Origin: Phycisphaerae bacterium RAS2
Lineage (GTDB): Bacteria > Planctomycetota > Phycisphaerae > UBA1845 > UTPLA1
Reading direction: 5' to 3'
Assembly: GCA_007753915.1 (NCBI GenBank)
Contig: CP036352.1
Location: 2,666,001-2,730,000 of the forward strand
Length of the DNA: 64,000 nt
In this document: positions 27,585 through 41,976 of the stretch, one piece after another
Position numbering within the stretch: position 1 is the stretch's first letter
Layout of the letters: each line of letters starts with the position of its first letter
Program-made: the position numbers and the translations under genes
The notes under the pieces: generated by a model
Told to the model about the DNA's origin: nothing
What the model saw: only the letters and a program-made list of their open reading frames with translations
The model's database searches: none

Positions 27585-28301
27585 TTATCCGGCAATGACC
27601 GGCTGGCGCACCCGCCGCCGAACCAGCGCGATGCCGCCCAACCCCAGGAGGCTCAATGTTGACGGCTCCGGCACGTACTCATACGTCACCTTCACCTTAA
27701 CATCGAGCTGCGGATTCTGAACTTCCAACTGCCATGCGTCGGGCGCGTTGCCCTGAAACTGGAGGTCTTGGGACATCAGGTCCGGACTTGCAAGGAAACT
27801 CACAATGTTCGGCCCATTCGTGCTATACAAGCCGACCGCGGGATTGTGCGAACTCGCCAGCGCCAGCGAATAGCCAAACGTGCCGAAGTCGATACCGTCC
27901 GGTGGTGTGCGGTCGAAGATCAGCGGACTGCCGCCGTCGTTGTCATCGGGCAGGAGGTTGACAAACGGCGTGAACGCCAGAAAGTTCCCGCCCGAAACAA
28001 CGCCCGGTCCCGTAAGCGACCAGATGCGCGTCAACCGCCCGCGAACGGTCGTGCCCTGAAACGGATCATCGTTGTCGGCGGACATTTCAACCGATGCACT
28101 GTGGAAGATCTCCACCAGTACGTTGATCAATGTGAGTGTTCCGCCCTGATTGTCGAAGCTGGGCACGTTGATTTGTGCCACCGGTTCCAGATCGCTCACG
28201 AAATGCGCTGACCCCATGTGCATGATGGAGTCGGCCTTCGTCGCTGTTACGCCGCCGAGAAAAAGCCCGGCACCCAACGCAAGAACAATTCCGCGATTCA
28301 T
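27585..28301 (-). CDS. PEP-CTERM protein, choice-of-anchor E-like, paralog 1
   Basis: 238 residues. Signal peptide (LALGAGLFLGGVTATKADS), a beta-rich body with FDNQGGTLTLINVLVEIFHSAS and DLMSQDLQFQGN, and a C-terminal PEP-CTERM tripartite signal (VPEPSTLSLLGLGGIALV then RRR). Exosortase systems cleave such signals on the way to the cell surface. Ribosome-binding site AGGGGG. Paralogous to the two following minus-strand genes; similar sequence throughout. Exosortase is not in the window. Confidence 0.85.
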   Translation of the reverse strand: MNRGIVLALGAGLFLGGVTATKADSIMHMGSAHFVSDLEPVAQINVPSFDNQGGTLTLINVLVEIFHSASVEMSADNDDPFQGTTVRGRLTRIWSLTGPGVVSGGNFLAFTPFVNLLPDDNDGGSPLIFDRTPPDGIDFGTFGYSLALASSHNPAVGLYSTNGPNIVSFLASPDLMSQDLQFQGNAPDAWQLEVQNPQLDVKVKVTYEYVPEPSTLSLLGLGGIALVRRRVRQPVIAG

Positions 28302-28660
28302 ACATCCCCCTGTTCGCCTAGACGGCCGGCCGGTACATCACGGCCCACCGTGCCCCGTTGTGTGATCCCCCTCTTGACCTGTCCGGCGTGCGAGACCCGC
28401 CCCCCACAGGAAGAGTTGCTACTCGATACTATTCACCAGGAATTTCGGCTGTCAAAGGAATTTGCGATTGTTTCGCGAGAAACTTGAGAAATGGGCCGCC
28501 AAATGTGGACGGCCCCAAAAAGACATCGTGATGAATGCCGCGAGGTCGGATCATTCGAGGTGATCGGTCCGAAACGCGCGAGAGAGATGGGCGCAAAAAA
28601 AAAGGACCGCCCCGAGCGGGACGGTCCTTTGAGGTTACAACTGCATCTTTGCGGACGTTC
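28302..28660. other. Intergenic region upstream of PEP-CTERM paralog 1
   Basis: 359 bp, no gene. It contains the terminator at 28595-28630 and an inverted repeat GTTTCGCGAGAAAC at 28470-28483 about 170 bp upstream of the paralog 1 start, a possible operator. Confidence 0.5.
28595..28630 (-). terminator. Intrinsic terminator of PEP-CTERM gene 2
   Basis: Hairpin AAAGGACCG...CGGTCCTTT with an A run at 28595-28603 (T run on the minus strand), directly after the gene ending at 28661. Confidence 0.85.
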
Positions 28661-29368
28661 TTAGCGTCGGCTGCGGCGAATCAGGCCAACCAGGCCCAGT
28701 CCGAGAAGCGAAAGGGTGGAAGGCTCCGGAACATAGTCGTATGTCACCTTCACTGTCACCGACAGCCGGGGATTTTCGACTTCAAGGGTCCACGCATCGG
28801 GGGCCTGGCCCTGAAACTGAAGGTCCTGGCTCATCAGGGTCGCTTCAACGTCGAAGTTCACCAGACCTGGGCCCGGCGTTGCGTACAGGACCGTCGCAGG
28901 ATTCGACGAATGCGCGAGCAACGGACCATACCCAATCGTGCCGAAATCGACACCATCCGGACCGGACGGATCAAAGACCACCAAGTCGCCATCATCCGCC
29001 GAAAGATTCACGAATGCGGTCGACGTCACATTGTTCCCACCAGCCACAACGCCGGGGCCGGTTGCCGCGAACGTGCGGAACATTCGACCGCGTACGACGG
29101 CCGGGCGGAACGGATCATCGTTGTCCGCGGCCATCTCGACAGAACCCTGGTGAAAAATCTCAACAAGGACGCTGTTCAGCGTGAGGGTTCCGCCCTGCGT
29201 ATCGAAGGACGGAAGCTGAATCTGCATCATGTTGTTCGGCGGCAGGTCGGTGACGAACTCCACTTTGTCCTGAAAGCTGATCGTGTCAGCATTCGCCGAA
29301 AGCGAAAATGTCGCGCTCAAGAGAGCAATTGCGACGACGGGTACGAGACTGAACTTCTTCACTTCCAT
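28661..29368 (-). CDS. PEP-CTERM protein, choice-of-anchor E-like, paralog 2
   Basis: 235 residues. Signal peptide (VAIALLSATFSLSANADT), body FDTQGGTLTLNSVLVEIFHQ and MSQDLQFQGQAPDAW, and C-terminal VPEPSTLSLLGLGLVGLI + RRSRR. Start is ambiguous: ATG 29368 abuts a GGGAGG, whereas GTG 29362 has GGAGG at six bases and would also leave a good signal peptide. Same architecture as paralogs 1 and 3. Confidence 0.85.
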   Translation of the reverse strand: MEVKKFSLVPVVAIALLSATFSLSANADTISFQDKVEFVTDLPPNNMMQIQLPSFDTQGGTLTLNSVLVEIFHQGSVEMAADNDDPFRPAVVRGRMFRTFAATGPGVVAGGNNVTSTAFVNLSADDGDLVVFDPSGPDGVDFGTIGYGPLLAHSSNPATVLYATPGPGLVNFDVEATLMSQDLQFQGQAPDAWTLEVENPRLSVTVKVTYDYVPEPSTLSLLGLGLVGLIRRSRR

Positions 29369-29596
29369 CCTCCCAGAAGACCTTCGCATGCCTGTGCGAG
29401 AGTCAGGCAACCCGCCCATCAGTGGGCAGGTGCATTCGGTCCTTCAGGAGAAAGAGTATCAGAAATAGGATTGGATGTCAATAGGCAGGCCGCGCGCGAA
29501 GCGCGGATCCCCGCTGGCCCATGCCATGAGGGGGCAATCCGGCAGCTGCATTCTCAATTTCGCCATAAGCCGTTTCAGAGAAACGACTTAAAAACT

Positions 29597-30295
29597 CTAC
29601 CGCGGCAGCCTTCGCCGTCGAACCAGCATAGCACCCGCACCCAGCGCCAAGAAACTTAGGCTTGCCGGCTCGGGGACATACTCGTACGTGACCTTCACAA
29701 CGACCGTCAACGACGGATTCTGAACGTCCAACTGCCACGCATCGGGCGGCGTTACAAATTGCAAGTCCTGCGACATCAGCAGCGGCGTCACAAAGAAATC
29801 AACCGTGCCAGTGTCGGTGTACGGCCCGAAAGCCGGGTTGTGCGAGCTTGCAAGCAACGGGCCGTAGCTAAGCGTGCCGAAGTCAACACCATCCGGTCCA
29901 GTTGGATCAAAGTTAAAGGGATTTCCACCGTCGGTATCGTCCCCCAGAAGATTCACAAACGGAGTCTGCGTGATCTGGTTACCGCCGGATACCACACCGG
30001 GGCCGGTCAACGACCATTGTCGAAACATTCGACCGCTTACCGTTGCGCCCTGAAAGGGATCGTCGTTGTCGGCCTTCAACTCGACCGATGCAAAGTGCGA
30101 TACCTCGACCAGGACGTTCGTCAGTGTGAGCGTGTTGCCCAGCGTATCGAACGCCGGCAGCGTGACCGTGCCCGTCGGTTGCAAGTCGCTGACGAACTTG
30201 ATCTCGTCCATGAAGCTGATCGAGTCGGCCGACGCAGGCGACGCGATGGTCGCGAGCAGCCCGCACGCGACGACTGTTGTCAAGATTCCTTTCAT
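29597..30295 (-). CDS. PEP-CTERM protein, choice-of-anchor E-like, paralog 3
   Basis: 232 residues. Signal peptide (GLLATIASPASADS), body FDTLGNTLTLTNVLVEVSHF and MSQDLQFVTPPDAWQLDVQ, and C-terminal VPEPASLSFLALGAGAMLV + RRRR. Closest to paralog 1 in the first half. Start ATG 30295 has GGAG seven bases upstream; the frame extends to 30529 without support. Upstream 294 bp hold no gene. Confidence 0.85.
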   Translation of the reverse strand: MKGILTTVVACGLLATIASPASADSISFMDEIKFVSDLQPTGTVTLPAFDTLGNTLTLTNVLVEVSHFASVELKADNDDPFQGATVSGRMFRQWSLTGPGVVSGGNQITQTPFVNLLGDDTDGGNPFNFDPTGPDGVDFGTLSYGPLLASSHNPAFGPYTDTGTVDFFVTPLLMSQDLQFVTPPDAWQLDVQNPSLTVVVKVTYEYVPEPASLSFLALGAGAMLVRRRRLPR

Positions 30296-30589
30296 CCTCC
30301 GACTCCTTTTCCGTTTTACTGCATTGACTCTGCGAACACGCACTTTCGCTGGGAAAGCACGCGGGAGTTGTGCTTCGTTCCGGTGCGGATCGCCCACGGC
30401 GAACCATTCACCGCCGTCGAGTATATCCGACAACGACTGTCCGTGTAAAGGAAAATCGCAAACCAAATCGTCCGCTAAACGGGAATTTATCGTGCAAACA
30501 CGCACATTTCCGGCGGTCCATTTCGCCAAATGACAAGCGTATAATATCGGAAGTAAAACCCTTTAGTATATCCGGACCGCGACGTCCAA

Positions 30590-33795: not shown

Positions 33796-34455
33796 CTAAG
33801 CCGAGCGCGAAAGGTGCTGGCGGGGGCGCGAGCAGTAGTAGACGCCGCCGGGCGGGACGTTCATCCAGACCATGCGATAGTTCACATTGTCAAACAGGCG
33901 GTGATAGAAACCCTTGAACAGCACCGGGGCCACGGTGATCTGAATGAACATGCCGTTGGGGGTCAGCGATTCGCGCAGCCACTGCCACAGCCGCACGGCC
34001 GCTCGCTTCGGCAAACTGGGCGTAGGCAGGCCGCTTAACACGTAGTCCACCTTCTGAATTCCGAGCTTGGCCAGCGGCTCGCGCACGCGCGTCGCGTCGC
34101 ACTGCAGCAGGTTCGCTTCGGGGAAACGCCGGCGCAACACCTCGCAGAAATCGCCATCGTTCTCGACCGCCACGAATCGATGGTGCGGCCGCATGTTCTC
34201 CAGGATCTCCTGCGTCACCGGGCCGGTGCCCGCGCCGAGTTCAACAATTGTTGCGGGCTTGCTCCAGTCAATCGGCCGAAGAACGCCGGCCACCAGCGAT
34301 GGGCTGGAGGGCACGGCGGATGAGATGGTTCGCCCCTTGGCGAGAAACTTGCGGAAGAACAGGCTGAAGTCAGCGGCCTTGGCACGGCGCTCACCGAGCG
34401 TCGACGCAGCCATTTCGGGTTCGGCGACGTTTGCGTTCAACGGATCGTGGCTCAC
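33796..34455 (-). CDS. SAM-dependent methyltransferase, phospholipid N-methyltransferase (PmtA)-like
   Basis: 219 residues from GTG 34455. Motif I ELGAGTGPVTQEIL, FVAVENDGDF, DYVLSGLPTPSLP (PmtA-type SGLP), and a C-terminal FIQITVAPVLFKGFYHRLF. Resembles the Rhodobacter-type PmtA enzymes that methylate phosphatidylethanolamine, and more distantly KsgA. GTG 34455 has GGAG at five bases; the ATG at 34413 and a TTG at 34533 are alternatives. Confidence 0.75.
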   Translation of the reverse strand: MSHDPLNANVAEPEMAASTLGERRAKAADFSLFFRKFLAKGRTISSAVPSSPSLVAGVLRPIDWSKPATIVELGAGTGPVTQEILENMRPHHRFVAVENDGDFCEVLRRRFPEANLLQCDATRVREPLAKLGIQKVDYVLSGLPTPSLPKRAAVRLWQWLRESLTPNGMFIQITVAPVLFKGFYHRLFDNVNYRMVWMNVPPGGVYYCSRPRQHLSRSA

Positions 34456-34708
34456 ATAAGCTCCGTGAAGAAAAGTAGAGGATGCTGCATGGATGCCGGA
34501 CTTTGCCGGCGGTGCCGCTCCCGGCGAATTCAACAGACTCCGTTCCGCTGTGCGGGGCGATCCGGCGGACCGGCAATCGGCGGCGTTGCGCCGAGACCGA
34601 TCACTGCCTTCAACAACCTACCGCATACGCTACGTTCGCGTTCGTTGCACCGCGCCGGTACGAACGCGCCGCGTGTTGTCCTGCAGCGCCGCGCCGGCCG
34701 CCACAGAC

Positions 34709-34956: not shown

Positions 34957-35029
<73 letters not shown>

Positions 35030-35058: not shown

Positions 35059-36243
35059 TTGCCGACCACCCCCGAAAAACTCGGCCTCTGGCTCGTCGGC
35101 GCGTCCGGCAATGTCGCGACGACGGTCGCCGTCGGTCTGGCCGCCATGCACTCGGGGCGCGTTCGACCCATCGGGCTGATTACGGAATCCCCCGCCTGTC
35201 GCGGCCTTCAGCTCGCGCCGTTTGCGTGCATCGTCCTTGGCGGTCATGAAATCGCACGGCGCACGCCGCATCAGACCGCACATGAATTGGCGGACCAGAG
35301 CGGATTATTCGGCACGGAATTGCTTAAGGCCGTCGCGCCGGCGCTGCGTCGATACGGCCGGCAAATCCGTCCTGGCTACGACCCACGCTCCCCAAGACGG
35401 GTATCAGCCGCGAGCGTGATTGCGCGACTTCGCCGGGATATCGACGCATTCAAGTCATCGCAGCGCTTGGCTCGCGTGGTCGTGATTCATGTTGCTTCGG
35501 CCGAGGCGATGCATGACGCACGCAAGTTTCCGCGCGATTGGAGGGCCTTCGAATCGATGCTGAAACGGCGCCGAGCGGCCGCCGTTCCACCGAGTGTGCT
35601 GTACGCGCTCGCGGCGATTGAGGCCGGGGCGGCGTATGTCAATTTTACGCCGGCAGTCGGCGCGGACCTTCCTGCGATTCGGGCGCGGGCGGCGCAGCGC
35701 GGCGCGGCCCTCATGGGGTCGGACGCCAAGACGGGCGAAAGCCTTCTGCGATCCGTGCTCGCACCGATGTTTTCTGATAGATGTCTGGATGTACGAAGCT
35801 GGACCGGCGCCAACCTGCTGGGCAATCGCGACGGCGCAAACCTGTCTGATGCGAAGGTCAAGGTCGCCAAGCTCCGCTCGAAGGACGCCATCCTCGCGTC
35901 GCTGCTTTCACCGCGGCCCGACACACACACGGCCATTGAGTTTGTCGCGTCGCTGCACGACTGGAAGACCGCGTGGAATCACATTCACTTCGCCGGGTTT
36001 CTCGGCACGCCGATGGCGTTGCAGTTTGTTTGGCAGGGGTGTGATTCGATCCTGGCCGCGCCGCTGGTCATCGACCTGGCGCGGCTGGCAGACCTGCACC
36101 TGCGCCGCGGCCGCTCCGGAGTCATGTCGCATCTGGCCGCATTCTTCAAGGCACCAATGGATTCGCGCGACCATCACTTTCACCGGCAAATGGCGGCCCT
36201 GCACGCCTACCTCGACAACGCCCGCGCGGAGGCCCGCCGATGA
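35059..36243 (+). CDS. Myo-inositol-1-phosphate synthase-like cyclase of an ebo-like cluster
   Basis: 394 residues. Gly-rich NAD motif LVGASGNVATTVAVG, FTPAVGADLPAIRARAA, SDAKTGESLL, and SWTGANLLGNRDGANL with the following basic SDAKVKVAKLRSKDA, matching inositol-3-phosphate synthase catalytic segments. The family cyclises glucose-6-phosphate to inositol-3-phosphate. Start inferred as TTG 35059: the frame runs back through tRNA-Lys without another start. Its stop overlaps the next ATG (ATGA). It takes the sugar-phosphate-cyclase place that EboD (dehydroquinate-synthase-like) holds in described ebo operons. Confidence 0.78.
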   Translation: MPTTPEKLGLWLVGASGNVATTVAVGLAAMHSGRVRPIGLITESPACRGLQLAPFACIVLGGHEIARRTPHQTAHELADQSGLFGTELLKAVAPALRRYGRQIRPGYDPRSPRRVSAASVIARLRRDIDAFKSSQRLARVVVIHVASAEAMHDARKFPRDWRAFESMLKRRRAAAVPPSVLYALAAIEAGAAYVNFTPAVGADLPAIRARAAQRGAALMGSDAKTGESLLRSVLAPMFSDRCLDVRSWTGANLLGNRDGANLSDAKVKVAKLRSKDAILASLLSPRPDTHTAIEFVASLHDWKTAWNHIHFAGFLGTPMALQFVWQGCDSILAAPLVIDLARLADLHLRRGRSGVMSHLAAFFKAPMDSRDHHFHRQMAALHAYLDNARAEARR

Positions 36244-37097
36244 CGCCGCGCCTGGCCTACAGCGCGAATGCCTACATGCGCTACGACGTGTTGGAAGCGA
36301 TTCGGCGCATTGCGGAAGTCGGCTACCGTGGAATCGAACTGATGGCCGACGCGCCTCACCTGTGGCCGGCCGAGACCACGCCGCAGACGATCGACGCCGT
36401 GCGCACGGCCCTTGAGCAGCGCGGCCTGACAATCTCCAACATCAACGCCTTCATGATGAATCGCATCGGCGACCCGCGGCAGCCCTATTGGCACCCGAGC
36501 TGGCTGGAGCCGGATCGGAGATACCGACAGGTGCGCATTGATCACACGCTCGCGGCGCTGGCGCTGGCACGCGACCTGGGCTCGCCGCACATCACCACGG
36601 AGCCCGGCGGGCCGAAACCCGACGGCATGACCTGGCGCAGCGCGTTTCAGCTATTTGTCGAGATGCTCAAGCCGGTGGTGGAACGCGCAGAACAACTGGG
36701 CGTGCGGCTGCTGGTCGAACCCGAACCGGGATTGCTGATCGAGCGGTGCGAACAATACCTCGAGCTGGCTGACCGGATTGCCTCGCCAGCCCTGGGATTG
36801 AATTTCGACGTCGGCCACGCATACTGCGTCAAAGAATATCCGGCCGTGTGGATCCCGCGTCTGCGCGAGCACACCGTGCATTACCACCTTGAAGACATCG
36901 CGGCGACGCGCGTACACGAGCACCTGGTTCCCGGCCGCGGCGCGATTGATTTTCCCGCCGTGCTGGCAGCGATCGGACAGGCGTATTTCGACGGCGGCGG
37001 CTGGGCGACCGTCGAATTGTATCCCTACGTGGACGACCCCGACGGCGCGGGCCGCTCGGCGCTAGCATTTCTCCACGACGCGGCGGCGGCCTTATGA
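36240..37097 (+). CDS. Xylose-isomerase-like TIM-barrel protein 1 (sugar phosphate isomerase/epimerase family)
   Basis: 285 residues. AP-endonuclease-2/xylose isomerase-like TIM barrel: ANAYMRYDVLEAIRRIAEVG, ELMADAPHLW, HITTEPGG, RLLVEPEPGLLIE, NFDVGHAYCV, YHLEDIAATRVHEHLVPG, ending VELYPYVDDPDG. Metal ligands (Glu, Asp, His, Glu) of the family appear present. ATG overlaps the stop of the previous gene; TGA overlaps the next ATG. Substrate unknown. Confidence 0.8.
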   Translation: MTPRLAYSANAYMRYDVLEAIRRIAEVGYRGIELMADAPHLWPAETTPQTIDAVRTALEQRGLTISNINAFMMNRIGDPRQPYWHPSWLEPDRRYRQVRIDHTLAALALARDLGSPHITTEPGGPKPDGMTWRSAFQLFVEMLKPVVERAEQLGVRLLVEPEPGLLIERCEQYLELADRIASPALGLNFDVGHAYCVKEYPAVWIPRLREHTVHYHLEDIAATRVHEHLVPGRGAIDFPAVLAAIGQAYFDGGGWATVELYPYVDDPDGAGRSALAFLHDAAAAL

Positions 37098-37972
37098 GCA
37101 AACTGCGAGCCTACGCCGAGCTGGTGCGGCTGCCGAATCTCTTCACGGCGGCAGCCGACGTGTTGGCGGGCTACTGGCTCTACACACGCGAGCTCTCCCC
37201 GACGCCGGTGCTTGCCGCGCTGGCAATTTCATCCGTTTGTCTTTATGCGAGCGCCGTCGCCCTGAACGCCGTTGTGGACGCGGAGCTCGATCGGACCGAA
37301 CGGCCCGGCCGCCCGATCCCTTCGGGCCGATTGACCCTGCACACCGCGCGACGATGCTTCGCATGGCTGGCGCTGCTGGGTCTCGCGTCGGCGGGGGCGG
37401 CATCGATCCTCGCGCAGACACCGGCCTGCATCGCCTTCGCCGGATTGATCTTCTTTGCCGGCGCCTTGTACAACCTTGGCGTCAAACACACCCCGCTCCG
37501 CGCTGCGAACATGGCGACGTGTCGCGGGCTGAATCTCGCCTTGGGCATGTCGGGGCACGCCGCAGTCGCCGGCCTGCCGCTGCTTGCGTTTTTTACATTT
37601 GTCGCTGCACTGACTCATTTCGGTCGCGACGAAGCAGGCGCGTCGTCGCGGAGCCGACTGAACGGCGGCGCCGCCGGCATCCTGATCGCCTTGCTGTTGC
37701 TCGGCTATTTTGCAGCCGAACGCATGATGGTCGATACGGCCGTGTTGGTGCTTTGGCTGGCTCTCGCCATTCACCTCGGCCGCGTCGCGCTACGTGCCGT
37801 CAAACGCCCCGATGCCGCCACCGTGCAATACGCCATGGGTACGTTCATCCTTGCGATCATCCCGTTTGACGCGATCATGGTGTGCGCGGCGCACGGCTGG
37901 CGCGGCGGCGTGCCCTTCGCCGTACTGCTGCTTGGAGCGGTGATCGCCGGGCGCTGGGCGCGACCCACTTGA
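37094..37972 (+). CDS. eboC: UbiA-family prenyltransferase, EboC-like
   Basis: 292 residues, about eight membrane segments. The first Asp-rich motif NAVVDAELDRTERPGRP (NxxxDxxxD) binds polyprenyl diphosphate; the CRGLNLALGMSG segment is typical of EboC/EDB UbiA proteins. The second D-rich motif is weaker. Transfers a prenyl group to an acceptor, probably in the membrane. Overlapping ATGA start with TIM barrel 1 and followed directly by TIM barrel 2. Confidence 0.82.
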   Translation: MSKLRAYAELVRLPNLFTAAADVLAGYWLYTRELSPTPVLAALAISSVCLYASAVALNAVVDAELDRTERPGRPIPSGRLTLHTARRCFAWLALLGLASAGAASILAQTPACIAFAGLIFFAGALYNLGVKHTPLRAANMATCRGLNLALGMSGHAAVAGLPLLAFFTFVAALTHFGRDEAGASSRSRLNGGAAGILIALLLLGYFAAERMMVDTAVLVLWLALAIHLGRVALRAVKRPDAATVQYAMGTFILAIIPFDAIMVCAAHGWRGGVPFAVLLLGAVIAGRWARPT

Positions 37973-37986
37973 CCGCCGCCGAGATC

Positions 37987-38850
37987 ATGCAGGATACCAG
38001 CTTGGTACCGATCCTCTCCTATAACACCAACGGTTTCGCGCACCATCGACTGCCGGAGGCGATCGAAGTTCTTTCGGGGATTGGATACCGCCATGTCGCG
38101 ATCACCCTCGACATTCATTCGCTCGACCCCGCGGGTGGCAATCTGGATGCTCACATCGCCAGCATTCGAGACTTGCTGGCAAGGCACGAGATGGCCTGCA
38201 CGATTGAAACGGGCGGCCGCTTCATCCTGGACCCGCACCGCAAGCACTGGCCCACGCTGGTCAGCGGCGACGCGCGCGACCGGCAGCGACGGATCGACTT
38301 TCTGCGCCGCGCGATCGACATCGCCGGAGCGCTGGACGCCGACGCCGTCAGCTTCTGGTCCGGCGCAATGGAACGCGACCTGCCCGTTGATTCAGCATGG
38401 TCACATCTCCGGGAAAGCTGCCGCGAGCTACTGATCCATGCGCGCGACCGCGCCGTGCAACTGGCTTTCGAACCGGAACCGGGCATGTTCATCGAAACCT
38501 GCGACCAGTACGCGAAGCTGGCCGGTGAAATGGTGGCGATCTCGAGCGGCATCCCGCTCGGGCTGGCGCTCGATGTCGGCCACGTTCACTGTCTCGGCGA
38601 CGGCGACCCTGCATCGCGCATCCGCCAATTCGCGGAATCGCTGCGCGTCATCCACATCGAAGACATGCGCACCGGCCTGCACGAGCACGTCATGTTCGGC
38701 GAGGGCGAAATGGATTTCCCGCCGATCATCGCAGCCTTGTGCGACGTGGGCTACACTGGGCCGCTCGTCGTGGAGCTAAGCCGCCACAGTCACGACGCGG
38801 TGAACGCGGCGCGACGAGCGTTTGAGTTTCTGTCGTCCATGCTCACCTGA
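37987..38850 (+). CDS. eboE: TIM-barrel protein 2, EboE-like
   Basis: 287 residues. Second AP-endonuclease-2-type TIM barrel: SYNTNGFAHHRLPEAIEVLS, TLDIHSLDPAG, CTIETGGRFILDP, FWSGAMERDLP, AFEPEPGMFIETCDQY, ALDVGHVHCLGDG, HIEDMRTGLHEHVMFGEG, VVELSRHSHDAV. Paralogous to barrel 1 but more divergent; it fits the metabolite-traffic protein EboE. ATG 37987 chosen; a TTG at 37969 would make a TTGA overlap with the UbiA stop. Confidence 0.78.
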   Translation: MQDTSLVPILSYNTNGFAHHRLPEAIEVLSGIGYRHVAITLDIHSLDPAGGNLDAHIASIRDLLARHEMACTIETGGRFILDPHRKHWPTLVSGDARDRQRRIDFLRRAIDIAGALDADAVSFWSGAMERDLPVDSAWSHLRESCRELLIHARDRAVQLAFEPEPGMFIETCDQYAKLAGEMVAISSGIPLGLALDVGHVHCLGDGDPASRIRQFAESLRVIHIEDMRTGLHEHVMFGEGEMDFPPIIAALCDVGYTGPLVVELSRHSHDAVNAARRAFEFLSSMLT

Positions 38851-38873
38851 TTGACTCTTCGGGGATTCTCGCC

Positions 38874-40184
38874 ATGCCGGATCAAACAACGATCTTTGTC
38901 TCCATGCCCGGTCTTCGCCGTCGCGATCTGCAACACATGCCGCGGTTGAGCGCTCTCGCGGCCGCGGGCGCCGTCGCCGATCTCGTGCCGACGTTTCCAT
39001 GCGTCACGTCTTGCGTTCAGGCGTCCATGCTCACCGGCCGCACGCCGCAGCAGCACGGCATCATCGGCAACGGCTTCTACCATCGCGACCGCAGCGAAGT
39101 CGAGCTATGGGTGGGCCGCAACGGTCTGATCGAAGGACCGCAGCTCTGGGGCCGCCTTGCCTCGGCCGGAGTCTCCAGTGCCGCGTGGATGACGCAGAAC
39201 ATCAAGGATGCCCCCGCCGATTTCATCGTTACGCCTGAACCGATCCACCACCCCGACGGCCGAATGGACCTCTGGTGCTATTCCAAGCCTGACGGGCTGT
39301 ATCAACGATTGTTCAATGATCTCGGCCATTTCCCGCTGATGAACTACTGGGGGCCGATGGCGAACATCAAATCGACCGAGTGGATCGTGAACGCGGCGCT
39401 TTGGCTGATCCAGCGCGAGCGGCCGCGATTCAACTACATTTATATCCCGCACATGGACTACGCCGCACAAAAGTTCGGACCGAACAGTCCGCAAGCCGTC
39501 GCCGCCTGTGCCGAGGCCGACGGGCAGCTCGGACGGTTGTTCGACGGACTTGCATCCATCGGCGCGAGCGAAGCGACGATCTTCGTAGCCGGCGAGTACG
39601 CGCTCACCGACGTGTCGCGCGTGCTTTACCCGAATCGCGTGCTGCGCGACGCAGGCTTCGCCCGAATCGACGAGCGCAACGGCGCGGAGCAACTTAATAT
39701 CGCCGAAAGCGTCGCCTTCGCTGTGGTCGATCATCAGTTCGCCCACCTTTACGTCAGCAAGCCGGAGGAGATCGACGCCGTCGCGGGGCTGTTCGAGGGG
39801 CTGGACGGCATCGCGCACGTGTTGACCGGCCGCGATCGCGCGGCGTTTCATGTCGATCACCCTCGCAGCGGCGAGGTCGTGCTAATCTGCGAGCCGGATA
39901 CGTGGCTTGCGTACTACTGGTGGCACGATGATGCAAAGGCCCCGCCCTTCGCGCGGACGGTCGACATCCACGCCAAGCCGGGCTACGACCCGGTGGAGCT
40001 GTTCTTCGACCCCGCGACAAAGTCGATCCCGCTGAATGCGTCGTTGGTGAAAGGTTCGCACGGCGCGACGGCGACGCGCCCGGATCAATTCGCGGCGATT
40101 ATTTCCAATAGCCCACTGCCTTCGCCGATCACCATAATTAACGATGCGAATGTTTACAACATGATTTCCGATCAGTTTATGTAA
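38874..40184 (+). CDS. eboF: Alkaline-phosphatase-superfamily phosphodiesterase, EboF-like
   Basis: 436 residues. Type I phosphodiesterase/nucleotide pyrophosphatase fold: FPCVTSCVQASMLTGRTPQQ with the expected nucleophile region and HGIIGNGFY, YIPHMDYAAQKFG, GEYALTDVSR, ADVVDH-type VVDHQFAHLYV, DIHAKPGYDPVELFFDP. No signal peptide. The order after UbiA and EboE matches EboF. The first metal Asp of the family (DG) is replaced in VSMPGLRRRDL, so metal chemistry may be altered; check by alignment. ATG 38874. Confidence 0.8.
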   Translation: MPDQTTIFVSMPGLRRRDLQHMPRLSALAAAGAVADLVPTFPCVTSCVQASMLTGRTPQQHGIIGNGFYHRDRSEVELWVGRNGLIEGPQLWGRLASAGVSSAAWMTQNIKDAPADFIVTPEPIHHPDGRMDLWCYSKPDGLYQRLFNDLGHFPLMNYWGPMANIKSTEWIVNAALWLIQRERPRFNYIYIPHMDYAAQKFGPNSPQAVAACAEADGQLGRLFDGLASIGASEATIFVAGEYALTDVSRVLYPNRVLRDAGFARIDERNGAEQLNIAESVAFAVVDHQFAHLYVSKPEEIDAVAGLFEGLDGIAHVLTGRDRAAFHVDHPRSGEVVLICEPDTWLAYYWWHDDAKAPPFARTVDIHAKPGYDPVELFFDPATKSIPLNASLVKGSHGATATRPDQFAAIISNSPLPSPITIINDANVYNMISDQFM

Positions 40185-40212
40185 GCAAAACCTGGTGAGA
40201 ACAGCGCGACTC

Positions 40213-40244
40213 ATCCGAGCCGCGACCGTCAGGGAGCGCCGAGT
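40213..40244. repeat. REP-like inverted repeat, left copy
   Basis: 32-bp sequence starting ATCCGAGCCGCGACCGTC, matched perfectly by the inverted copy at 40862-40893. The two copies flank the RAYT gene. GCTTGGGT is also shared further in (40248 and 40833). Confidence 0.85.
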
Positions 40245-40305
40245 GGAGCTTGGGTAGGCAAGAAAGCCCAAGTCCGTAATTAATTGCTCAATCACAAAGG
40301 ACGGG

Positions 40306-40800
40306 ATGAACAATCCGCTCGCCTACTTCATCACGTTTTCATGCAAGGGCGCTCGGTTTCACGGCGATCCGCGCGGATCCGTGGATCGCGACCACAATCA
40401 GCCCGAAGGTGAATTTGCGCCCTCCAATCCTGTTCGCGTTTCATCAGAAGCCGACCGGATGAACCACGGTCCGATCGTCTTGTCGCCCGAACAGCGCGCC
40501 TGCCTTGAAGCGACGATGCATGAGGTCTCCAAGCACCGCGGATGGACGATACACGCACTGGCCGTACGTTCCAACCATCTCCACGTCGTGGTTTCTGCAT
40601 CCGGAACTTCGCCAGAGCGCGTCATGAATGATCTAAAGGCGTACGGCACGCGTCGATTGCGAAAGCAGGGCCTGCTCGAAAGTATCACATCGCTCTGGAC
40701 GCGACACGGAAGCACAAAGTACTTGTGGAAAACGGCGGATATCGCAAAAGCCGTTCAATATGTTGATGAGTGGCAGGACGATCCGCGCCGATTTGATTGA
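40306..40800 (+). CDS. REP-associated tyrosine transposase (RAYT / IS200-like TnpA)
   Basis: 164 residues, similar in length to Y1 transposase-family members. The HUH motif is NHLHVVV (about residues 90-96) and the tyrosine lies in LKAYGTRRLRKQG. Single-strand transposases of this family mobilise REP sequences. Framed by the 32-bp inverted repeats and lying between convergent EboF and TatD genes, so it looks like a captured or REP-mobilising copy. ATG GATGAACAATCC... start at 40306; no frameshift. Confidence 0.88.
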   Translation: MNNPLAYFITFSCKGARFHGDPRGSVDRDHNQPEGEFAPSNPVRVSSEADRMNHGPIVLSPEQRACLEATMHEVSKHRGWTIHALAVRSNHLHVVVSASGTSPERVMNDLKAYGTRRLRKQGLLESITSLWTRHGSTKYLWKTADIAKAVQYVDEWQDDPRRFD

Positions 40801-40861
40801 GTTGTCGAATTCCGCATTCTACTCCCAAACAAACCCAAGCGTCTCGCCAATCCGCAGAGAG

Positions 40862-40893
40862 ACTCGGCGCTCCCTGACGGTCGCGGCTCGGAT
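40862..40893. repeat. REP-like inverted repeat, right copy
   Basis: Inverted perfect 32-bp copy of 40213-40244, ending 18 bp before the stop of the TatD gene. Confidence 0.85.
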
Positions 40894-40911
40894 TGCGCGC
40901 AAATCGTTAGG

Positions 40912-41718
40912 TCAATCGACTCCCATGAAACGCCGGCACTGACGAAAGAACGCCAGCGGGTTATCATATACAATCTTCGATATATCCGCTGCGATCCGGC
41001 CCCGCTGACGCAATTCCTGTATGAACCGCGGCACGGCCATCGGCTCGCTCGGGCCCCAATCCCCCGCCGAGTTCACCATCAGCCGCTCGCCGCCGTACAC
41101 CTCTACCATGTCTGCCGCCCGCGCGGGCGTGCACTTCGTCACCGGGTACAACGTCATCCCCACCCAGCAACCGGCGTCCAGCGCGGAGCGAATCGTGTGC
41201 TCCTCGACGTGATCGATGCAAACGCGCTCCGGGCGGATGCGCGAATCGCCACGAATCATATCGAGAATCATCCGAGTGCCCTGGTACTTGTCCTCCAGGT
41301 GCGGCGTGTGAACGAGCACCAGTTCGTCATGCCGCGCCGCCAGATCAAGCTGCTCCTGAAAGATTCGACATTCATTGGGCGTGTTTTTATTCAGCCCGAT
41401 CTCGCCGATGCCCAGCACCCCCGGCCGATCAAGGAACTCGGGAATTAGCGCGATCACTTCGCGCGACAGCGCGACGTTCTCCGCCTCTTTCGCATTGATG
41501 CACAACCAGCAGAAGTGGCGAATTCCGTATTGCGCCGCCCGCTTCGGCTCATATTCCGTCAATTGTCGAAAATAATCATGAAACGCCGCCGCGCTGCCCC
41601 GGTCAAACCCCGCCCAGAACGCCGGCTCGCTCACGGCCGCGCACCCGGCCTGCGCCAATCGCTCGTAGTCGTCGGTCACGCGCGAGACCATGTGGATGTG
41701 CGGGTCGATGTATTGCAT
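40912..41718 (-). CDS. eboB: TatD-family metal-dependent hydrolase, EboB-like
   Basis: 268 residues. All TatD metal-site motifs appear present: DPHIHM, GEIGLNK, LVHTPH, IDHVEEHT, NSAGDWG. TatD proteins are nucleases, but EboB-type members may act on other phospho-substrates. Expected partner of EboC/E/F but on the opposite strand, separated from them by the RAYT element. The ATG follows the stop of a small upstream gene by 3 bp. Confidence 0.85.
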   Translation of the reverse strand: MQYIDPHIHMVSRVTDDYERLAQAGCAAVSEPAFWAGFDRGSAAAFHDYFRQLTEYEPKRAAQYGIRHFCWLCINAKEAENVALSREVIALIPEFLDRPGVLGIGEIGLNKNTPNECRIFQEQLDLAARHDELVLVHTPHLEDKYQGTRMILDMIRGDSRIRPERVCIDHVEEHTIRSALDAGCWVGMTLYPVTKCTPARAADMVEVYGGERLMVNSAGDWGPSEPMAVPRFIQELRQRGRIAADISKIVYDNPLAFFRQCRRFMGVD

Positions 41719-41721
41719 GAA

Positions 41722-41976
41722 CTACCGCCGCGTCTGCCAACCCAATTCATACGGTCGCGAAAAAATCATCTGCACGCGCTCCGCCCGATCCGCCCCTTCT
41801 GACAGGAGCGCCGTAATCGCTTCGCGCGTCTTCACCAATCGTGGATCATTCCGCACACCGGCTGCACCCGCGCCACGCTCGACGCGATCCAGAATCGCCG
41901 CCAGGTCCAGCAGCCGGCTTCGCGCCTCGTTGAAATGCCGCGTCAGCACCGCATCGGCCGAAAGACTCGCCGCCAT
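41722..41976 (-). CDS. Small helical protein next to TatD gene (unknown)
   Basis: 84 residues, predicted all-helical and soluble (ARSRLLDLAAILDRVERG, SEGADRAERVQMIFSRPYEL). Strong ribosome-binding site GGAGG five bases before ATG 41976, and it precedes the TatD gene by 3 bp, so the two are co-transcribed. No known domain recognised. EboA of described operons is longer, so I do not call it EboA. Confidence 0.6.
   Translation of the reverse strand: MAASLSADAVLTRHFNEARSRLLDLAAILDRVERGAGAAGVRNDPRLVKTREAITALLSEGADRAERVQMIFSRPYELGWQTRR

Follow-up and report, generated by a model that had tools for sequence, protein, structure and literature searches.

An ebo-like gene cluster of Phycisphaerae bacterium RAS2 in which an inositol-phosphate synthase and two TIM barrels probably stand in for EboD and EboE

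The 64,000-nucleotide stretch of DNA analysed here, called the window below, comes from Phycisphaerae bacterium RAS2 and covers positions 2,666,001–2,730,000 of a genome that consists of a single contig (CP036352.1; 4.32 Mb, 97% complete). It carries a set of genes related to the ebo operon. The set opens with a gene for a cyclase of the myo-inositol-1-phosphate synthase type (MIPS) at 35059–36243 on the forward strand (TTG start; PF07994, 8.8e-42; PF01658, 1.7e-26). This gene is followed on the same strand by TIM1, a xylose-isomerase-like TIM barrel (36240–37097; PF01261, 1e-36), a UbiA-superfamily prenyltransferase of the EboC type (37094–37972; PF01040, 4.6e-13), TIM2, also a xylose-isomerase-like TIM barrel (37987–38850; PF01261, 5e-37), and EboF, an alkaline-phosphatase-fold phosphodiesterase/phosphohydrolase (38874–40184; PF01663, 1e-51). 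EboB, a TatD-like metallo-hydrolase with a DPHIHM motif (PF01026, 2.6e-10), is encoded convergently on the reverse strand (41718–40912). A first-pass annotation had named a MIPS-like cyclase, two TIM barrels, a UbiA protein, a phosphodiesterase and an opposite-strand TatD protein here, and domain matches confirm all of them in place. It had also described the genes as overlapping. This holds for the MIPS/TIM1 and TIM1/UbiA pairs, whose reading frames overlap by 4 bp, but TIM2 begins 14 bp after the end of UbiA and EboF 23 bp after the end of TIM2. The gene block is kept across the family of the window genome and is therefore not a product of chance.

The best NCBIfam match of the window UbiA protein is EboC (143 bits, cut-off 250), followed by the SCO3242 family (126 bits, also under the cut-off). 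The protein is 35% identical to Chitinophaga EboC, and known EboC proteins fall within the same UbiA tree; by sequence it counts as EboC-type. Its closest solved structure is digeranylgeranylglyceryl phosphate synthase (6m31). EboF shares 35–41% identity with EboF of annotated clusters (37% in Chitinophaga, 41% in Streptomyces), and EboB shares 42–43% with EboB of Chitinophaga, Aureibacter and Streptomyces. TIM2 shares 44% identity with the barrel from the MIPS-type ebo cluster of Streptomyces. Among PDB structures it is related to epimerases and inosose enzymes and, less strongly, to endonuclease IV; an AlphaFold model built from the single sequence has a mean pLDDT of 50. The closest solved relatives of TIM1 are MJ1311, TM_0416, Art22, IolI and AsbF. 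An assignment of TIM1 as EboE itself is ruled out by its score to the EboE model (37 bits, cut-off 250).

MIPS enzymes convert glucose 6-phosphate into 1D-myo-inositol 3-phosphate. The window protein, the only MIPS of its genome, is closest among solved structures to Archaeoglobus fulgidus Ino1 (1u1i; 3e-67, full-length alignment). Residues N255, K274, K278, K306 and K367 of Ino1, which we take to be the catalytic positions, align with N252, K271, K275, K303 and K364 of the window protein, and these five are invariant in 14 ebo-associated MIPS proteins. Mutant entries of Ino1 carry changes at two of its positions, K278 and K367. Judged from this alignment, the active site of the window MIPS is complete. 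The protein belongs to the ebo clade of the MIPS tree and has the NAD-binding domain and the catalytic lysines of the MIPS family (EC: 5.5.1.4). It thus resembles Ino1 in all catalytic positions, whereas the role of Ino1 is a housekeeping one in archaeal inositol metabolism, unlike the ebo role proposed below for the window MIPS.

Ebo clusters occur in many phyla and in plastids of algae, and they affect the export of a cyanobacterial sunscreen and the grazing of nematodes on Pseudomonas. In its 2016 description an isoprenoid-cyclitol product was proposed, with sedoheptulose 7-phosphate as the substrate on account of the position of EboD in a tree, which the authors called speculation; inositol is never mentioned there (PMC5133447). 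Deletion of eboA, eboB, eboC, eboE and eboF, reported in 2018, showed that each of these genes is required to move the scytonemin monomer into the periplasm (PMC6282210). The window shares homologues of EboB, the EboC-type UbiA and EboF (25–43% identity for the three), as well as an overlapping gene run, with the eboABCDEF operon of Bacteroidota, cyanobacteria and eustigmatophyte plastids (PMC5133447, PMC6282210), but it lacks EboA, EboD and EboE and has MIPS with TIM2, and TIM1, instead. The Pseudomonas edb (edible) cluster, compared by description, contains a full set of ebo genes, of the EboD type, together with extra genes (PMC6282210).

The absence of the three genes extends to the whole genome. 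No protein of it matched the EboA model NF035938, which gave a match at 1.3e-49 in the Chitinophaga genome used as a positive control, and nothing was found in the place of EboA. The only EboD-like protein is AroB (TIGR01357, 352 bits, cut-off 305), so that the search for an EboD homologue lying beside eboA elsewhere in the genome yielded neither gene. EboE gave no profile match at E 1e-40, a level at which 167 of 244 genomes of the phylum match. In the strict sense, therefore, the locus falls short of a full ebo operon: of its six defining genes, EboA, EboD and EboE were not found. It could work like ebo only if other enzymes supplied the missing functions, and for EboD and EboE a survey of the phylum supports such a replacement.

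The survey covered seven gene families in one set of 244 genomes from the phylum, each at least 90% complete and drawn evenly. EboD was called from matches of 259–379 bits, to the exclusion of two outliers at 167 bits; the EboE cut-off was E 1e-40, with nothing listed between 1e-40 and 1e-63; and TIM2 was called at E 1e-65. A scan of contigs with the window UbiA protein alone returned only 3 loci and is too stringent for distant relatives. MIPS was present in 132 genomes, EboC-like UbiA in 186, EboF in 183, EboD in 55, EboE in 167, TIM1 in 19 and TIM2 in 119. EboC, EboF and a cyclase occur together in 172 of the 244 genomes, which suggests that the ebo pathway is common in much of the phylum.

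The two cyclases are nearly exclusive of each other. Among the 176 genomes with both EboC-like UbiA and EboF, 119 carry only MIPS, 51 only EboD, 2 both and 4 neither (Fisher 6.5e-37; such values ignore shared ancestry, which weakens them as support, and the genomes are not to be read as independent). MIPS thus accompanies EboC and EboF in 121 of these 176 genomes, and the earlier proposal of a variant ebo-like pathway with MIPS gains support. MIPS does not act as a substitute alone, however: it accompanies TIM2 in all 119 genomes with the latter, and TIM2 is absent from all 55 with EboD. A second pair behaves similarly. EboE and TIM1 are found together in no genome, and all but two of the 176 have one of them. 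By this pattern TIM1 fills the position of EboE in the window, without being an EboE. The differing phylogenetic profiles, with TIM2 tracking MIPS and TIM1 replacing EboE, also rule out that TIM1 and TIM2 are duplicates of one function. Each of the four possible combinations is represented: MIPS+TIM2+EboE (98 genomes), EboD+EboE (49), MIPS+TIM2+TIM1, the type of the window (10), and EboD+TIM1 (2), besides minor classes.

The exclusivity of MIPS and EboD is consistent and recurrent. Across a tree built from 74 UbiA proteins the two labels, MIPS and EboD, are intermingled, and 8 changes are needed; the starred branches of this tree alone force at least 4 changes for EboD and at least 5 for MIPS. 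Both cyclase types even occur within single families (15 MIPS and 12 EboD genomes in f33; 7 and 1 in f61). The two genomes with both cyclases, G140 (loci L163 and L165) and G170 (L164 and L166), belong to family f45 and have an EboD-type cluster with an unlinked MIPS gene. The MIPS of G140 falls in a separate clade of the MIPS tree, and that of G170 is broken and was left out of it.

Plasmid records from other phyla, among them those of haloarchaea, form an independent replicate and show the same pattern. Among 72,556 plasmid records, searched with laxer cut-offs (TIM2 at E 1e-20), EboD was found in 16, MIPS in 44, TIM2 in 33 and EboE in 47. All 33 records with TIM2 also carry MIPS, and EboD occurs with neither MIPS nor TIM2; the strict cut-off of 1e-65 therefore does not account for this pattern. 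On Streptomyces plasmids MIPS, an SCO3242-type UbiA, a TIM2 orthologue (44%), EboA, EboB, EboE and EboF are consecutive genes. In annotated form the actinomycete SCO3242-type cluster comprises inositol-3-phosphate synthase, an SCO3242 family prenyltransferase, a sugar phosphate isomerase, EboA, TatD, EboE and a nucleotide pyrophosphatase. The window resembles it in MIPS (42% identical), the TIM2-type barrel (44%), UbiA, EboB and EboF, and differs in that the actinomycetes keep EboA and EboE and lack TIM1. What characterizes the MIPS-type ebo clusters of actinomycetes, namely a MIPS of the ebo clade with an intact active site, a TIM2 orthologue near it and no EboD, is also found at the window locus. 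In S. coelicolor, SCO3242 (a putative transferase) and SCO3243 (MIPS) are listed among the genes of the CDA cluster (PMC3610822).

In Gemmatirosa EboB, EboF, UbiA, MIPS and TIM2 are consecutive, with EboE alongside. Plasmid clusters of three haloarchaea (Halocatena, Natronococcus and Halobaculum) consist of EboB, two TIM barrels, UbiA, MIPS and EboF and, like the window, have neither EboA nor EboE; their gene order is different. EboD-type clusters of Deinococcus and Ketogulonicigenium contain EboD, EboE, UbiA, EboF and TatD, with EboA in addition in the latter. Haloarchaeal megaplasmids with an ebo-like set were seen at loci L172, L173, L178 and L180, the last from Haladaptatus, where the set has no MIPS nearby.

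TIM2 also accompanies MIPS outside ebo. In Roseomonas and Hymenobacter a TIM2 orthologue and a different MIPS lie in a cluster devoid of UbiA, together with YcaO, a Gfo/Idh/MocA oxidoreductase and a PIG-L deacetylase; the Roseomonas version adds genes for a GT4 glycosyltransferase, a methyltransferase and an MBL hydrolase. In a record of Methylobacterium that is unannotated, MIPS and TIM2 are about 5 kb apart, also in the absence of UbiA. The loci concerned are L169 (3470–12782), L170 (4214–12915) and L177 (3690–10819). The TIM2 orthologues of the UbiA-less cluster are 45–49% identical to the Streptomyces ones. From its gene content the YcaO cluster looks like a pathway for an inositol-derived metabolite. 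Because TIM2 accompanies a different MIPS in this second context, the data point to TIM2 acting on something that MIPS makes.

Taken together, the ebo pathway appears to have two swappable slots, one filled by EboD or by MIPS with TIM2, the other by EboE or TIM1. The window would then carry both alternatives and represent a doubly substituted form, in which a core of EboB, EboC and EboF is fed by MIPS+TIM2 instead of EboD alone. We regard this explanation, taken as a whole, as probable. Clusters of the MIPS type can already be seen in the database annotation of Streptomyces and haloarchaea; the swap rule of two exchangeable slots is new. No paper describing MIPS-type ebo clusters or the exclusivity of MIPS and EboD was found in the open-access literature searched (MIPS in ebo clusters, prenylated inositol, SCO3240–3244).

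In the proposed sequence of reactions MIPS would form 1D-myo-inositol 3-phosphate from glucose 6-phosphate, as predicted from its active site. EboD is a sugar-phosphate cyclase of the dehydroquinate synthase type, a superfamily that expels phosphate on ring closure, whereas MIPS keeps it; for this reason the MIPS branch should need one more enzyme. TIM2 could be that enzyme and yield, from the product of MIPS, the cyclitol that EboD provides in a single step, via phosphate removal or via isomerization or dehydration of the ring. TIM1 may perform the step of EboE on the ring, after which EboC would attach a prenyl chain at the membrane. Prenylation of a polyol by the closest solved relative of the UbiA protein suits, by analogy, a cyclitol acceptor. 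EboF and EboB could trim phosphate or acyl/ester groups, and the pathway would end in a prenylated cyclitol bound to the membrane. As the first-pass annotation did, we infer that MIPS supplies the cyclitol of such a product.

A further step can be proposed tentatively, with less than even credence: that EboD and MIPS+TIM2 are analogous, non-homologous routes to one same cyclitol. 2-Deoxy-scyllo-inosose synthase, an enzyme related to EboD, starts from glucose 6-phosphate. EboD would then use this substrate too, in place of the published sedoheptulose 7-phosphate, and a prenylated inositol-type ring would be the ebo compound of bacteria, haloarchaea and some plastids. The swap of EboD for MIPS+TIM2 ties the reaction of EboD to an enzyme of known substrate and product, so that a few purified enzymes would allow a test of which cyclitol ebo makes. 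The large unannotated TIM-barrel family of TIM2 also gains a pathway context from the swap. The 2016 survey reported three planctomycetes in which the ebo genes were not clustered, two of them without eboD (PMC5133447), and the swap offers an explanation for the missing gene.

Several observations weigh against the two-slot explanation. Only 4 phylogenetically independent pairs could be formed on well-supported branches, and although none is contrary to the prediction, this number is too small for significance (p 0.125). In most planctomycetes the genes do not form a cluster; MIPS lies no more than 5 kb from UbiA in 15 genomes, so the association in this phylum is one of co-occurrence. The TIM2 cut-off of E 1e-65 splits a continuous range of scores, which may account in part for the lack of TIM2 in 13 MIPS genomes. 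The TIM1 proteins of the two EboD+TIM1 genomes are divergent, and the second TIM barrel of the haloarchaea is closer to TIM1 than to TIM2. The sole ebo prenyltransferase that has been assayed, UbiA-297, farnesylated quinoline carboxylic acids and not cyclitols (PMC9235831). No biochemistry of any MIPS-type ebo cluster was found in the literature, nor was a demonstrated synthesis of an isoprenoid cyclitol by any ebo cluster.

MIPS-type and EboD-type clusters could also share most enzymes and yet lead to different end compounds, one prenylated molecule derived from inositol and another from a C7 cyclitol, if EboC and the enzymes that follow it tolerate either ring. This is a possibility to be taken seriously, though we lean against it. 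It agrees with the published tree, in which EboD groups with sedoheptulose-7-phosphate cyclases (PMC5133447), and with the use of glucose 6-phosphate by MIPS. However, the UbiA proteins of both types interleave on one tree, even within one family, and EboE, EboC and EboF persist through the switch, which would be easier with the same intermediate. That MIPS is a housekeeping inositol synthase parked by chance beside ebo genes and unrelated to the pathway was rejected as very improbable. Although MIPS genes are common across the phylum and mostly stand outside clusters, 53 of the 55 EboD genomes are devoid of any MIPS, TIM2 was never seen without MIPS, and MIPS lies within the ebo clusters of Streptomyces, Gemmatirosa and haloarchaea and adjoins UbiA in several planctomycete families.

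Two other explanations concern the function of ebo as such. It is unlikely that Ebo is a system for the translocation of small molecules and not for biosynthesis, to which the cyclase supplies a carrier or cofactor: all of its families except EboA are enzyme families, and the conserved requirement for a cyclase fits synthesis. This suggestion would in any case be compatible with synthesis if the lipid made is the carrier. Somewhat less likely still is the formation of an inositol ether lipid, in which EboC would O-prenylate inositol phosphate or a glycerol-inositol unit to give a membrane lipid instead of a secondary metabolite. The relationship of the UbiA protein to digeranylgeranylglyceryl phosphate synthase speaks for it, as do the occurrence of the gene set in haloarchaea and in most of the sampled planctomycetes, but the interchange with EboD, the two TIM barrels and the edible and scytonemin phenotypes would be left unexplained.

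EboF and EboB are separated in the window by an inserted element at 40213–40893, which is bounded by perfect 32-bp inverted repeats (40213–40244 and 40862–40893) and carries a REP-associated Y1 transposase gene on the forward strand (40306–40800; PF01797, NF047646). This element is an insertion that lies outside the pathway. It is missing from the sister genome L025, where EboF and EboB are convergent neighbours, and for this reason the insertion looks recent.

Directly upstream of MIPS a tRNA-Lys(CTT) gene is located (34957–35029, forward strand). The open frame of MIPS extends to 34822, but a start there is ruled out, since the frame would cross the tRNA gene and relatives begin near 35059; the part upstream of 35059 is non-coding. 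In the window genome and four others of its family (L025, 7766–7838; L026, 7365–7437; L027, 7291–7363; L028, 11217–11289) a tRNA-Lys(CTT) precedes MIPS by at most about 500 bp, which suggests that the two are transcribed together or that the tRNA gene marks an old site of insertion. Scans for promoters and terminators gave matches no more frequent than expected by chance.

The cluster is adjoined on the reverse strand by an ornithine-lipid N-methyltransferase-like gene (33796–34533; OlsG, 177 bits, under the cut-off), which in several relatives (L025, L026, L027 and L043) is likewise found close to MIPS or UbiA. Farther away, at 27585–30529 on the reverse strand, the window encodes in tandem three secreted paralogues that end in PEP-CTERM-like tails and have a mutual identity of 56–60%.

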